From: Achromobacter insuavis | Lineage (GTDB): Bacteria > Pseudomonadota > Gammaproteobacteria > Burkholderiales > Burkholderiaceae_B | Reading direction: 5' to 3' | NCBI RefSeq assembly: GCF_902859645.1 | Contig: NZ_CADIJR010000030.1 | Span: 1 to 64,000 of the forward strand | DNA length: 64,000 nt | Part shown: one piece after another, positions 55,489 to 60,382 of the stretch | Layout: every line of letters begins with the position of its first letter | Position numbering within the stretch: the stretch's first letter is position 1 | Position numbers and translations under genes: made by a program | Notes under the pieces: generated by a model | The model's database searches: none | Told to the model about the DNA's origin: nothing | The model's input: only the letters and a program-made list of their open reading frames with translations

Positions 55489-55545
55489 CCGGTCGGGCCG
55501 CGGCCCGGAGGCGTCCGGGCCGGCCTTCCGGGTCCGGCAACCCGG

Positions 55546-55589
55546 AACCCCTGTGTTGTGCGCGGGACGCACGGCACAGGGGTTTTTTT
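55546..55589 (+). terminator. Terminator of metE
   Basis: AACCCCTGTG and CACAGGGGTT pair around a 19-base loop and are followed by T5-T7. Confidence 0.85.
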
Positions 55590-55665: not shown

Positions 55666-58600
55666 ATGATTCTCCAAGGCCCCTATCGGCCGGATCTGCT
55701 TGCCGCGGAGACGCTGCCCGATATTCTGGAAGCCACGATCCTGCGGTATCCCACCGCCGCGGCCATTCATTGGCTGGATCAAACCCTCACCTACGAGACG
55801 CTCGGGCGACGCGCCGACCTGGCCGCGCACCACCTGATCGAGGCCGGCGTGCGGCCGGGCGATATCGTCGGCCTGTGCCTGCCGCGCGGCGACGACCTGC
55901 TCGTCATGCAGGCCGCCATCGCCAAGGCGGGCGCGGCCTGGCTGCCGTTCGAATCCGACACGCCGCCCGACCGCATGCTGGTGTGCCTGCAGGACGCGGG
56001 CGCGCGCGGCCTGGTCGCGGGCGGGGACGTGCGCCTGGATGGCATGATCACCTGGACCACCTGGGAACTGTCGGTGGCGGTCGATGCGCCGCTGCGTCGG
56101 CGCGACGGCCTGCTGCCCGAGCACCCGGCCTACGTGATCTATACCTCCGGCTCCACCGGCAAGCCCAAGGGCGTGCCGATCAGCCAGGCCAGCATCTGCC
56201 ATTTCCTGCGCAGCGAGAACGAAGTGCTGGGCGTGCGCCATGGCGACAAGGTCTACCAGGGCTTCTCGGTGGCCTTCGACATGTCGTTCGAGGAAATCTG
56301 GATCAGTTACCTGGTTGGCGCCACGTTGTGGGTGGCGCCCAAGATGCTGACCACCGATCCCGAGGCATTGCCCGACGCGCTGGTGCGCGAGGGCGTGACC
56401 GTGCTGCACGCGGTGCCGACGCTGCTGGCGCTGTTCGCGCGCGACGTGCCGGGCCTGCGCATCGTCAACCTGGGCGGCGAGATGTGCCCGGAATTCCTGG
56501 TGCAGCGCTGGGCCACGCCTGGCCGCCGCCTGTTCAACACGTACGGCCCGACCGAGACCACGGTGTCGGCCAGCCTCGCCGAGCTGCTGCCCGGCCAGCC
56601 CGTCACCATCGGCACGCCGCTGCCCAACTACGGCATGCTGATCCGCGGCGACGACGGCGCGGTGCTGCCGCAGGGGCAGACCGGCGAGCTCTGTATCACC
56701 GGCCCCGGCGTCGCCGGCGGCTACCTGGGGCGTCCCGAACTGACGGCCGAGAAGTTCCTGGCCAACCCGCGTCCCAGCGGCGACCATGACACCCGCATGT
56801 ACCGCAGCGGCGACCTGGCGCGCATCGACGAGAACGGCCAGATCCAGTGCCTGGGCCGCAGCGATGACCAGGTCAAGGTGCGCGGCTTTCGCGTCGAACT
56901 GGGCGAGATTGAGGCCGCGCTGTATCGGCAGGCCGGCGTCGGGGCCGCCGCCGTGGTGCTGCGCGATCTGGCGGGCATCGACCAGTTGGTGGCGTTCCTG
57001 ACGCCGGAGGGCGACGCGCGGCTCGATCCGCACGCGCTGCGCGCCGCGCTGGCCGCGGAGTTGCCCGCCTACATGATTCCGGCCCGCTTCGAACTGGTGG
57101 CCGAAGTGCCGCGCCTGACCTCGGGCAAGATCGACCGCAAGGCGCTGAAGGCGCGCGAGCTGGCCACCGCATCCGAGCCCAGCGGCGAAGACGACACGCC
57201 GGTCTCGCCGGCCGAGCACGCCTTGTTCGAGGCCCTGCGGCCGCTGTTCCCGGGCCAGCCGCTGCGGCTGGCCAGCGATTTCTTCCGCGACCTGGGCGGC
57301 CATTCGCTGCTGGCGGCCCGGCTGGTGTCGTCGCTGCGCAAGCATCCGCAGTTTTCCGCGCTGACCATGCACGAGCTCTACCAGCATTCCGTGCTGGGCG
57401 CGCTGGCGGCGCGGCTCGACGCGCTGGCGGCCGAATCGGCGGCCGCGGCGGCGCCGGTCCAGCAGGCGCCGATCGAGCGCGCGCCGGAATGGCGCCGCTG
57501 GGCCTGCGGCCTGGCGCAGCTGGCGGTGCTGCCGCTCCTGATCGGCGTGCGCATGCTGATCTGGCTGACGCCGTTCTTCACCTACCACTACTTCACCGGC
57601 GACGAGGGCGATTCGGTGTGGCGCGCGGTGGCGCTGTCGATCGCCAGCTACCTGGCCTGCAACCTGCTCAGCTTCGGCGTGGCGGTGGTCTGCAAGTGGG
57701 GCATCCTGGGCCGTCTCAAGGCGGGCCGCTATGCGCTCTACGGCTGGACCTTCTACCGCTGGTGGCTGGTCGACCGCATCCTCGACATTCCGCCCGCGCA
57801 CCTGCTGGCGGGTTCGCCGCTGCAGGCCTGGTACCTGCGCGCGCTGGGCGCGCGCATCGGCCGCGACGCCGCCATCAGCCGCATTTCGGTGCGGGCCCCG
57901 GACCTGCTGACGGTGGGCGATGGCGCCAGCGTCGGCGCGGCGGTGAACCTGGAGAACTTCGAGGTGCACGGCGCGCACTGGGTCGTGGCGCCCATCACGC
58001 TGGGCCGGAACGCCTACGTCGGTTCGTATGCGGTGGTGCAGGGCGACGTGACCATCGAGGACGACGGCCGGCTCGACGGCCTGTCGTCGCTGGCGACCGG
58101 CTCGCGCATCCCCGCCGGCCAGATCTGGAGCGGCGCGCCGGCGCGGCACGATCCGCAGGCGCGCGCCCCCGAACTGCCCGAGCGGCCGGTGCGCGAAGGG
58201 CGCTGGGCGCGGCTGGACATGCTGGCCTACGCCGCCGGCGGCACGCTGATCGCGGCGCTGTTCTTCATGCCGGTGTTCCCCAGCTTCGTGCTGATCGACT
58301 GGATCGACGCGCGCTGGCTGGACCTGATGGGCTCGCGCGTCTGGTGGCCGAATGCGTTCCTGGCCTATCTGCTGCTGGCCCTGCCGGCCAGCGCCTTGCT
58401 GCTGTTCCTGACCGTGCTGGTCTCGGCCATGCTGCGCTGGGCGTTGCTGCCGCGCTTGAGCGGCGGACGCTGGCCGGTCTATGGCCAGATCTACCTGCGG
58501 CGCTGGCTCACCAACCAGATCCAGGAGTCCAGCCTGAGCGTGCTGCACGGCCTGTATGCCTCCATCTATGCCGGCACCTGGTACCGGCTGCTGGGCGCCA

Positions 58601-59637
58601 AGGTCGGGCCCGGCACCGAGATCTCGACCGCGATGGGCATCGTGCCCGACATGCTGACGCTGGGCCGCGACAGCTTCATCGCCGACGGCGTGATGCTGGG
58701 CGACGAAGAAATCGACCGCGGCTGGATGACCATGCGGCCCACCGTCATCGGCAACCGCAGTTTTGTCGGCAACGGCGCCTACGTGCCGGATGGCTCGGTC
58801 CTGCCCGACGACGTGCTGATCGGGGTGCAGAGCCGGGCGCCGGCCAACGCCCGCATGGCCAGCGGCCAGACCTGGCTCGGCAATCCGCCGCTGGCGCTGC
58901 CTGCGCGCGAGCAGGCGGCGGGCTTCCCCGACCACCTGACCTTCCGTCCCAGCCTGGGCCGCAAGGTGGCGCGCGGCGCGGTCGAGTTGATGCGCATGAT
59001 CCTGCCGCTGGCGGTGGTGATCGCGGTGGGCTACCTGACGGTCATGAAGGTCATCCCGATCGCGGTGCGCGACGGTTTCGTGGCGGCGTTCGACGAACTG
59101 ATGCTGGCCGGCGTGCTGTACGGCGTCGGCACCTTCCTGTTCCTGGTGGCGCTCAAGTGGCTGCTGATCGGCCGTTACCGGCCGCACGCCGAGCCGATGT
59201 GGACGCCGTTCGTGTGGAAGAGCGAGGCCGTGACCAGCCTGTACGAGTCGATCGCGGTGCCGAACTTCTTCAACTTCCTGCGTGCCACGCCCTGGCTGCC
59301 GCTGGCCCTGCGCTGCATGGGCGCGCGCATCGGCAAGCGGGTGTTCATGGACACCACCGACATCACCGAGTACGACTGTGTATCAATTGGGGACGATGCG
59401 GTGCTGCACGCCTGGTCGGGGCCGCAGACGCACCTGTTCGAGGACCGCGTCATGAAGATCGGGCAGGTCCGCATCGGCAACGGCGTCAATGTCGGGCCGC
59501 GCAGCACCATCCTGTACGACACCCGGGTCGAGGACGGCGCTCGCCTGGGGCCGCTGACCCTGGTGCTCAAGGGCGAAAGCATCCCGGCGGGCCAGGCCTG
59601 GATGGGCAGTCCGGCCACTCCGTGGACACAAGGCTGA
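55666..59637 (+). CDS. Pls/PosA-type stand-alone amino-acid homopolymer synthetase (A-T-membrane domain)
   Basis: 1323 residues. The adenylation domain (~1-500) has A3 YTSGSTGKPKG (159-169), FDMSFEEIW (204-212), NTYGPTETTV (291-300) and a late catalytic lysine in TSGKIDRKAL. The carrier domain (~510-585) has DLGGHSLLA with phosphopantetheine Ser547. The C-terminal half has six membrane segments (near 612-638, 651-681, 851-876, 896-928, 1107-1133, 1145-1168) separated by hexapeptide-repeat-like soluble domains. This is the architecture and length of Streptomyces epsilon-poly-lysine synthetase (1319 residues), the Pls/PosA family. No condensation or thioesterase domain is visible. The product could be a basic homopolymer or a modified surface polymer. 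Monocistronic or with the downstream DUF2889 gene. Confidence 0.88.
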   Translation: MILQGPYRPDLLAAETLPDILEATILRYPTAAAIHWLDQTLTYETLGRRADLAAHHLIEAGVRPGDIVGLCLPRGDDLLVMQAAIAKAGAAWLPFESDTPPDRMLVCLQDAGARGLVAGGDVRLDGMITWTTWELSVAVDAPLRRRDGLLPEHPAYVIYTSGSTGKPKGVPISQASICHFLRSENEVLGVRHGDKVYQGFSVAFDMSFEEIWISYLVGATLWVAPKMLTTDPEALPDALVREGVTVLHAVPTLLALFARDVPGLRIVNLGGEMCPEFLVQRWATPGRRLFNTYGPTETTVSASLAELLPGQPVTIGTPLPNYGMLIRGDDGAVLPQGQTGELCITGPGVAGGYLGRPELTAEKFLANPRPSGDHDTRMYRSGDLARIDENGQIQCLGRSDDQVKVRGFRVELGEIEAALYRQAGVGAAAVVLRDLAGIDQLVAFLTPEGDARLDPHALRAALAAELPAYMIPARFELVAEVPRLTSGKIDRKALKARELATASEPSGEDDTPVSPAEHALFEALRPLFPGQPLRLASDFFRDLGGHSLLAARLVSSLRKHPQFSALTMHELYQHSVLGALAARLDALAAESAAAAAPVQQAPIERAPEWRRWACGLAQLAVLPLLIGVRMLIWLTPFFTYHYFTGDEGDSVWRAVALSIASYLACNLLSFGVAVVCKWGILGRLKAGRYALYGWTFYRWWLVDRILDIPPAHLLAGSPLQAWYLRALGARIGRDAAISRISVRAPDLLTVGDGASVGAAVNLENFEVHGAHWVVAPITLGRNAYVGSYAVVQGDVTIEDDGRLDGLSSLATGSRIPAGQIWSGAPARHDPQARAPELPERPVREGRWARLDMLAYAAGGTLIAALFFMPVFPSFVLIDWIDARWLDLMGSRVWWPNAFLAYLLLALPASALLLFLTVLVSAMLRWALLPRLSGGRWPVYGQIYLRRWLTNQIQESSLSVLHGLYASIYAGTWYRLLGAKVGPGTEISTAMGIVPDMLTLGRDSFIADGVMLGDEEIDRGWMTMRPTVIGNRSFVGNGAYVPDGSVLPDDVLIGVQSRAPANARMASGQTWLGNPPLALPAREQAAGFPDHLTFRPSLGRKVARGAVELMRMILPLAVVIAVGYLTVMKVIPIAVRDGFVAAFDELMLAGVLYGVGTFLFLVALKWLLIGRYRPHAEPMWTPFVWKSEAVTSLYESIAVPNFFNFLRATPWLPLALRCMGARIGKRVFMDTTDITEYDCVSIGDDAVLHAWSGPQTHLFEDRVMKIGQVRIGNGVNVGPRSTILYDTRVEDGARLGPLTLVLKGESIPAGQAWMGSPATPWTQG

Positions 59638-59714
59638 GGCGGCGCGGCGCGATCCGCCCGGGCGGCGGGCGTTCGCGGCGCGCATTTTGACGGTCGGGGC
59701 AGGGCGGGCTGCGC

Positions 59715-59720
59715 TATACT
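59715..59720 (+). promoter_or_regulatory. -10-like element upstream of DUF2889 gene
   Basis: TATACT in GCTATACTTTGAAGG, 60 bp before the DUF2889 start. The nearest TTGACG (59687) is 22 bp away, too far for a standard spacer, so the -35 is not settled. Confidence 0.35.
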
Positions 59721-59779
59721 TTGAAGGTTTTGTTGCCGCGCACCATGCGCCGGCCGTCTTCGCCCCGCAGGCCCCAAGC

Positions 59780-60382
59780 ATGCCCTTGCCACCGCCGGAT
59801 TGTCCTCGCCAGCCGCTGCACACGCGTTCCATACGCGTGCAGTCGTATGCGCGCGATGACGGCAAGTGGGACCTGGAAGCCGAGCTCATCGACGTCAAGG
59901 CGTACGATTTTCCCAAGCGCGACGGCGAGATGTTCAAGGCGGGGCAACCCATCCACCATATGCACCTGCGCATCACCATCGATGGCGATTTCACCATCGT
60001 GGCGGCGCAGGCCGTCTATGATGCCGCTCCCTACGGCGAGCACTGCATGGCCATCGAATCCGCCTACGCTGACCTGATCGGCATGAACCTGCTCAAGGGG
60101 TTCCGCCGCCAGGTCAAGGAGCGCTTCGGCCATGTCGAGGGCTGTACGCACATGACCGAGCTGTCGCAGGTGCTTCCCACCGCGGCGGTGCAGACCATGG
60201 CCAACCGCCGGCGGCAGGAAAGCAACCCGAACCGGCGTCCATTCCAACTGGACGGCTGTCATGCGCTGAGCACCGACGGCCCGGTGGTGGCTGAGCACTA
60301 TCCCAAGTGGTACACCGGGGGTAGCGCTGAGGCATCGGCCGATTCGACCTCCGATTCACCTTCTCTTTCTCATACGTCCTGA
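59780..60382 (+). CDS. DUF2889 family protein
   Basis: 200 residues with the family core HTRSIRVQSYARDDGKWDLEAELIDVKAYDFPKRDGEMFKAGQPIHHMHLRITID and a His/Cys-containing stretch (FGHVEGCTHMTELSQVLPTAAVQTM). Function unknown; DUF2889 occurs in other proteobacteria and actinobacteria. ATG 59780 (MPLPPPDCPRQPLHTRS) is the first plausible start for this core; the ribosome binding site is weak. It ends 10 bp before sucC. Confidence 0.85.
   Translation: MPLPPPDCPRQPLHTRSIRVQSYARDDGKWDLEAELIDVKAYDFPKRDGEMFKAGQPIHHMHLRITIDGDFTIVAAQAVYDAAPYGEHCMAIESAYADLIGMNLLKGFRRQVKERFGHVEGCTHMTELSQVLPTAAVQTMANRRRQESNPNRRPFQLDGCHALSTDGPVVAEHYPKWYTGGSAEASADSTSDSPSLSHTS

Follow-up and report, generated by a model that had tools for sequence, protein, structure and literature searches.

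A posA orthologue in Achromobacter insuavis whose product most likely assembles delta-poly-L-ornithine

Which polymer is assembled by the stand-alone synthetase encoded downstream of metE in Achromobacter insuavis? The gene lies in a stretch of 64,000 nucleotides (NCBI RefSeq assembly GCF_902859645.1, contig NZ_CADIJR010000030.1, positions 1 to 64,000 of the forward strand), called the window below. A preliminary description of this DNA had proposed a Pls/PosA-type enzyme with one adenylation (A) domain, one carrier domain and a C-terminal half with six membrane segments, acting on a basic or diamino substrate. Judged from its sequence, the gene is in all likelihood a posA orthologue and delta-poly-L-ornithine, a short polymer with positive charge, the most likely product, because it closely matches the characterised synthetase gene of Acinetobacter baumannii. 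It is considered here as an ordinary but well-supported new member of the known Pls/PosA family.

The proposed architecture was confirmed by Pfam, TIGR02353 and hydropathy. At E <= 0.001, the only Pfam matches in the posA-like protein were AMP-binding, AMP-binding_C, PP-binding and Hexapep; there was a single A domain and a single carrier domain, and condensation and thioesterase domains were absent at this threshold. The NCBIfam Pls/PosA model TIGR02353 matched residues 617-1317 (profile positions 2-695 of 695) with 690.3 bits, against a cut-off of 423.1. Membrane segment pairs were located at residues 616-634/657-675, 850-880/902-920 and 1101-1130/1145-1163 using a 19-residue hydropathy scan, and no scan position in the first 590 residues rose above the same threshold. 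Taken together, hydropathy, the AlphaFold2 model and the repeat alignment gave six membrane segments, arranged as three pairs around three tandem repeats. The whole genome contains 27 AMP-binding matches, and the posA-like gene was its sole TIGR02353 match over the cut-off. The nearest named record was from Achromobacter dolens (98% identical).

The substrate was read from the ten code residues of the A domain (D205, M206, E209, H248, N268, G270, T292, V300, S301 and K488), which give DMEHNGTVSK. Code positions were transferred from the numbering of PMC10522769 via alignment to the PosA structure 8g95. As a positive control, the A. baumannii posA gene (L195) was read by the identical procedure and also gave DMEHNGTVSK. 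The Gly and Lys positions were placed according to the general anatomy of A domains. The approximate code of the preliminary description, D-M-E-H-V-L-T-V-S-K, stood at eight of the ten positions; V-L at positions 5-6 came from an alignment slip and should be N-G. The code obtained is letter for letter that printed for PosA (PMC10522769), with the equivalents of PosA D217, M218, E221, T304 and S313 all in place, as in the PosA subgroup. In PosA, D217 and E221 are indispensable and T304 and S313 contribute, Met218 limits chain length, and L-Orn is favoured over L-Lys more than 160-fold (PMC10522769). The basic or diamino substrate first proposed is thus supported and, the code being identical to that of PosA, sharpened to ornithine. 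In silico, neither a non-basic predicted code nor placement in a clade with another known product was encountered.

A search of solved structures with the A domain pointed the same way. These 445 residues matched the PosA A domain best (8g95, 502.6 bits), and epsilon-poly-lysine synthetase (7wew) scored 252.9 bits. Identity to A. baumannii PosA was 55% over the full length, 61% in the A domain and 53% in the C half. The chain-length position of the code is Ala in lysine enzymes and Phe in DAP/2,4-diaminobutyrate (DAB) enzymes (PMC10522769). Here the second code position holds Met206 where epsilon-poly-lysine synthetase has Ala, and epsilon-poly-lysine was ruled out as the product by this code. 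An enzyme of the same family working on another diamino substrate (lysine or DAB) or on a mixture, with a polymer other than poly-ornithine, is improbable. PosA itself activates Lys and DAB at a low level (PMC10522769) and the product is not fixed by the code alone, but the code agrees with that of PosA in every one of its ten letters, the Met of the chain-length position being one of them. In a Streptomyces plasmid relative, Phe occupies that position (DFECLSAVTK) and the next gene encodes a diaminobutyrate transaminase (L196), which fits a DAB enzyme; the posA-like gene is flanked by metE and the DUF2889 gene.

Synthesis of poly-ornithine would proceed as follows. By transfer of roles from PosA (PMC10522769), the A domain would adenylate L-ornithine, with Asp205, at the position read here, holding the alpha-amine, Glu209, Thr292 and Ser301 holding the delta-amine, and Met206 setting the chain length. 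The ornithyl group would be loaded on the phosphopantetheine arm at Ser547. The membrane-embedded C half is predicted by its model to be a pseudo-trimer formed by one chain, with beta-helices like those of hexapeptide acyltransferases. If it reacts like PosA, it would transfer the ornithyl group to a side-chain amine, either that of the next ornithine or that of the chain being built, and form isopeptide bonds. Of the three repeats, the third alone would have kept a working site, in which H1256 is the likely base.

The fold was analysed on an AlphaFold2 model (mean predicted local distance difference test score, pLDDT, 88.6; predicted template modelling score, pTM, 0.89). All 50 Foldseek matches listed for the C-half model were left-handed beta-helix proteins, and the C-terminal repeats have the left-handed parallel beta-helix fold. 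No solved structure of the C half was retrieved by sequence search (best E 4.2e-9, a hexapeptide protein) or was among the 50 Foldseek matches listed, a missing row not being proof of absence. Invariant residues were sought in an alignment of 31 family members (locus L192, whose match stops before the C-terminal end, was left out). The third repeat holds 8 of the 11 invariant polar residues of the three beta-helical repeats, and among them H1256 is the only invariant histidine. A term search of the available text of the PosA paper (PMC10522769) returned no named catalytic residue for the C half.

In many relatives, posA has a companion gene. When neighbouring open reading frames (ORFs) were clustered outside Achromobacter and Bordetella, one family was found directly after posA and on the same strand in 36 of 62 loci; the next cluster had 9. 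By tblastn, this companion was counted directly downstream in 41/62 non-Achromobacter relatives. Two of the 21 loci lacking it end within 250 bases of posA, and one of these two has a partial match; matches near the posA 3' end coming from over-extended ORFs were left out of the companion counts. At E <= 0.01, 35 of these 36 members matched Pfam ACPS (4'-phosphopantetheinyl transferase superfamily), the lowest E being 1.2e-9, and the invariant columns include Asp, W...EA..K and Glu. Two Achromobacter members were above the Pfam cut-off of 25 bits, scoring 28.3 and 25.2. Matches to NCBIfam below its curated cut-offs were phosphopantetheinyl transferase models for four of five members, the fifth (from Achromobacter) having none. 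Conservation of this family is well supported and its identity as a phosphopantetheinyl transferase fairly, not fully, so. A literature search found no paper linking such a transferase to these enzymes, and the word is absent from the main text of PMC10522769.

The companion directly follows posA in 14 of the 29 posA-bearing Achromobacter genomes (e.g. L046:9984-10544 and L048:7772-8329) and is absent from 15, including this one. Between posA and the DUF2889 gene, Achromobacter and Bordetella loci have 145-268 bases without the companion and 652-711 with it; the window has 151. On the posA tree (28 labelled rows; one genome's split copy, L149/L150, excluded), at least three changes in companion presence are needed. 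This strain lacks the gene of this kind that is frequent downstream of posA, so activation of the carrier would need a phosphopantetheinyl transferase encoded elsewhere. We tentatively propose, with slightly less than even confidence, that the whole Pls/PosA polymerising half is a fused hexapeptide-acyltransferase pseudo-trimer in which two clefts have decayed and a single third-repeat site remains (H1256 as general base, with E1259, K1264, K1302 and E1304 around it), and that a betaproteobacterial PosA branch often has its own phosphopantetheinyl transferase, gained or lost several times in Achromobacter lineages.

The short distance of 151 bases, against 652-711 where the companion is present, could also be read as a sign that, for want of this neighbour, the posA-like gene of this strain is inactive or a relic. 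This is very unlikely. The frame is intact and the ratio of nonsynonymous to synonymous substitution rates (dN/dS) was 0.05-0.18 in comparisons with 27 Achromobacter homologues, so the gene is under purifying selection. Against the eight nearest homologues likewise without the neighbour, dN/dS was 0.05-0.12. The neighbour is missing from 15/29 posA-bearing Achromobacter genomes, and two other ACPS-family genes over the cut-off were found in this genome, outside the posA locus. The companion is not directly downstream of A. baumannii posA either and so is not required in the branch.

Some observations weigh against the interpretation preferred here, a poly-ornithine synthetase with a third-repeat site and a transferase companion in its relatives. 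The full-length query matched best a linear gramicidin synthetase chain (512.1 bits), PosA coming next with 499.5 bits in one stretch; the former leads because its score adds up two A domains. Codes can be degenerate, and PosA weakly accepts Lys, Arg and His (PMC10522769). It is conservation alone that points to H1256 as the base. Absence of the companion here could mean reduced function; for A. baumannii posA, which also lacks it directly downstream, the next ORF (361 aa) had no Pfam match. Companion scores for ACPS are low (25-30 bits against the cut-off of 25, four members), none of five members exceeded a curated NCBIfam cut-off, and the Sfp-type motif W..KE(A/S) was found in 0/36 members.

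The preliminary description had also put forward, for checking, a pairing of posA with the DUF2889 gene, and this pairing did not survive the conservation check. The posA-like gene is present in 29 of 43 Achromobacter genomes. Among the 14 without it, the DUF2889 gene was found in 13, the remaining genome being 57% complete. Twelve of these 13 loci have metE directly upstream (<500 bases) and sucC directly downstream, and the thirteenth ends before the place of metE; DUF2889 therefore belongs to the resident gene order. Next to posA it was found only in Achromobacter, in Bordetella ansorpii and in one further genome of the same family, and no match at E <= 1e-20 was obtained in 62 non-Achromobacter, non-Bordetella loci, some with short flanks. 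As a functional partner, DUF2889 was ruled out because it sits at the same place without posA and was not found beside posA in the 62 other loci.

By Pfam, the gene order in the window is recA, recX, a LysR regulator gene, metE (cobalamin-independent methionine synthase), posA, DUF2889, sucC, sucD and a gene for a TerC-family membrane protein. Coordinates are given in Table 1. The hairpin between metE and posA argues that posA is probably its own transcription unit, apart from metE. No sigma-70-like promoter was found for posA by simple scan. The posA gene of A. baumannii is also described as its own transcription unit (PMC10522769).

Table 1. Features of the posA locus, numbered from the first nucleotide of the window
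Feature	Position	Strand	Basis
Terminator-like hairpin between metE and posA, 19 pairs then T run	55544..55586	+	Sequence read
posA-like gene, Pls/PosA family synthetase, 1323 aa, ATG start	55666..59637	+	One intact ORF, 1323 codons; TIGR02353
Adenylation domain core, residues 22-354, code DMEHNGTVSK	55729..56727	+	Pfam PF00501 E 2.8e-71; phmmer to PosA A domain 8g95 E 7.2e-150
Adenylation C-terminal subdomain (AMP-binding_C), residues 414-488, with code Lys488	56905..57129	+	Pfam PF13193
Carrier (PP-binding) domain, residues 532-584	57259..57417	+	Pfam PF00550 E 1.3e-6
LGGHS carrier motif, Ser547	57304-57306	+	LGGHSL at residue 543
C-terminal polymerisation half, residues 617-1317: three transmembrane (TM) pairs with a left-handed beta-helix repeat after each	57514..59616	+	TIGR02353, hydropathy, AlphaFold2 model
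Third beta-helix repeat C3, residues 1164-1323, putatively catalytic: T1208, Q1254, H1256, E1259, K1264, Y1284, K1302, E1304	59155..59634	+	Strictly invariant in 31/31 aligned members
Short gap, phosphopantetheinyl-transferase-like gene absent	59638..59785	.	No match to 36 such proteins at E <= 1e-3
DUF2889 gene, bystander in resident metE-DUF2889-sucCD order	59786..60382	+	PF11136 E 1e-43

Close relatives were compared in 118 rows (the query and 117 picked by similarity, some species appearing twice from two collections; 128 loci were extracted, and short pieces and short duplicates dropped). The code was DMEHNGTVSK in 114 rows and DMEHNGSVSK, with Ser for Thr at position 7, in the other 4. 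Such agreement is expected within the branch because rows were chosen by similarity to the query. In a survey of the phylum, 27 of 398 genomes matched at E <= 1e-60, 26 of them over the cut-off and this genome included; in the same family, 13/200 genomes were over the cut-off. The 26 other phylum loci (one under the cut-off; the code reading did not include L194, a second and partial match in one of the genomes) gave DMEHNGTVSK (4), DLEDLGTVVK (8), DLEDIGSVVK (5), DFEALGTVTK (6) and, once each, DVEANGTGSK, DMEHNGTVTK and DSECYGGVTK. The codes DLEDLGTVVK and DLEDIGSVVK, found in 13/26 phylum loci (L180-L192), resemble the DLEDIGTV(T/V/I)K group of PMC10522769, which that paper leaves without an assigned substrate. 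DFEALGTVTK marks a one-genus branch (L168-L171, L174 and L176) in which the carrier motif is GANSL instead of GGHSL.

A quick tree built from 77 rows placed the proteins of Achromobacter and Bordetella ansorpii in one group beside Iodobacter-type proteins, apart from most Burkholderiales. This grouping hints at transfer of posA into the Achromobacter/Bordetella lineage. The Iodobacter-type loci (L056, L057, L058 and L063), the nearest outside Achromobacter/Bordetella, have a common upstream gene, whose L058 member matches a DNA alkylation repair enzyme (PF08713).

As to its role, the polymer might serve chiefly the cell surface or biofilms and not be primarily a secreted antimicrobial; such a role would be compatible with delta-poly-L-ornithine as the product and is rather unlikely. 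A posA knockout of A. baumannii shows a modest rise in biofilm, but a synthetic 12-mer is antifungal (PMC10522769), and nothing in the window decides between the two roles.

The statement that such polymers are little explored in Gram-negative bacteria has to be corrected: PosA, published in 2023, is from a Gram-negative bacterium, and many genera with matching code residues have already been reported (PMC10522769). A literature search found no paper treating Achromobacter together with poly-ornithine. This analysis adds Achromobacter (29/43 genomes) and mostly betaproteobacterial relatives with the PosA code, and the polymer may therefore be a common Gram-negative product. To our knowledge, A. 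baumannii is the only species in which the synthesis of poly-ornithine has been demonstrated biochemically. The analysis had two by-products: a phosphopantetheinyl-transferase-like gene that is missing next to posA here, and a candidate active site. The former provides, in relatives, a candidate activating enzyme beside posA that should be useful for making active protein; with the latter, named candidate catalytic residues in the polymerising half are now available for test. If true, the fused pseudo-trimer would identify the condensation catalyst behind isopeptide polymers.

Among known systems, the nearest is PosA of A. baumannii (PDB 8G95-8G98), with which the posA-like protein shares domain order, the ten-residue code and 55% full-length identity; neither gene adjoins biosynthetic genes. 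It differs from PosA in genus and locus (metE-posA-DUF2889-sucCD), has 53% identity in the C half and is known here from sequence alone. It resembles Pls, the epsilon-poly-L-lysine synthetase (7WEW), in its overall plan, made up of an A domain, a carrier and three each of TM pairs and repeats (PMC10522769). Unlike Pls, it has Met, not Ala, at the chain-length position, and the Pls A domain scores half the bits of that of PosA. The C-terminal repeats have the fold of hexapeptide acyltransferases such as maltose and serine O-acetyltransferases. Those enzymes are homotrimers using acyl-CoA. In the posA-like protein, by contrast, one chain carries all three repeats, separated by membrane helices, and the donor is expected to be carrier-bound.

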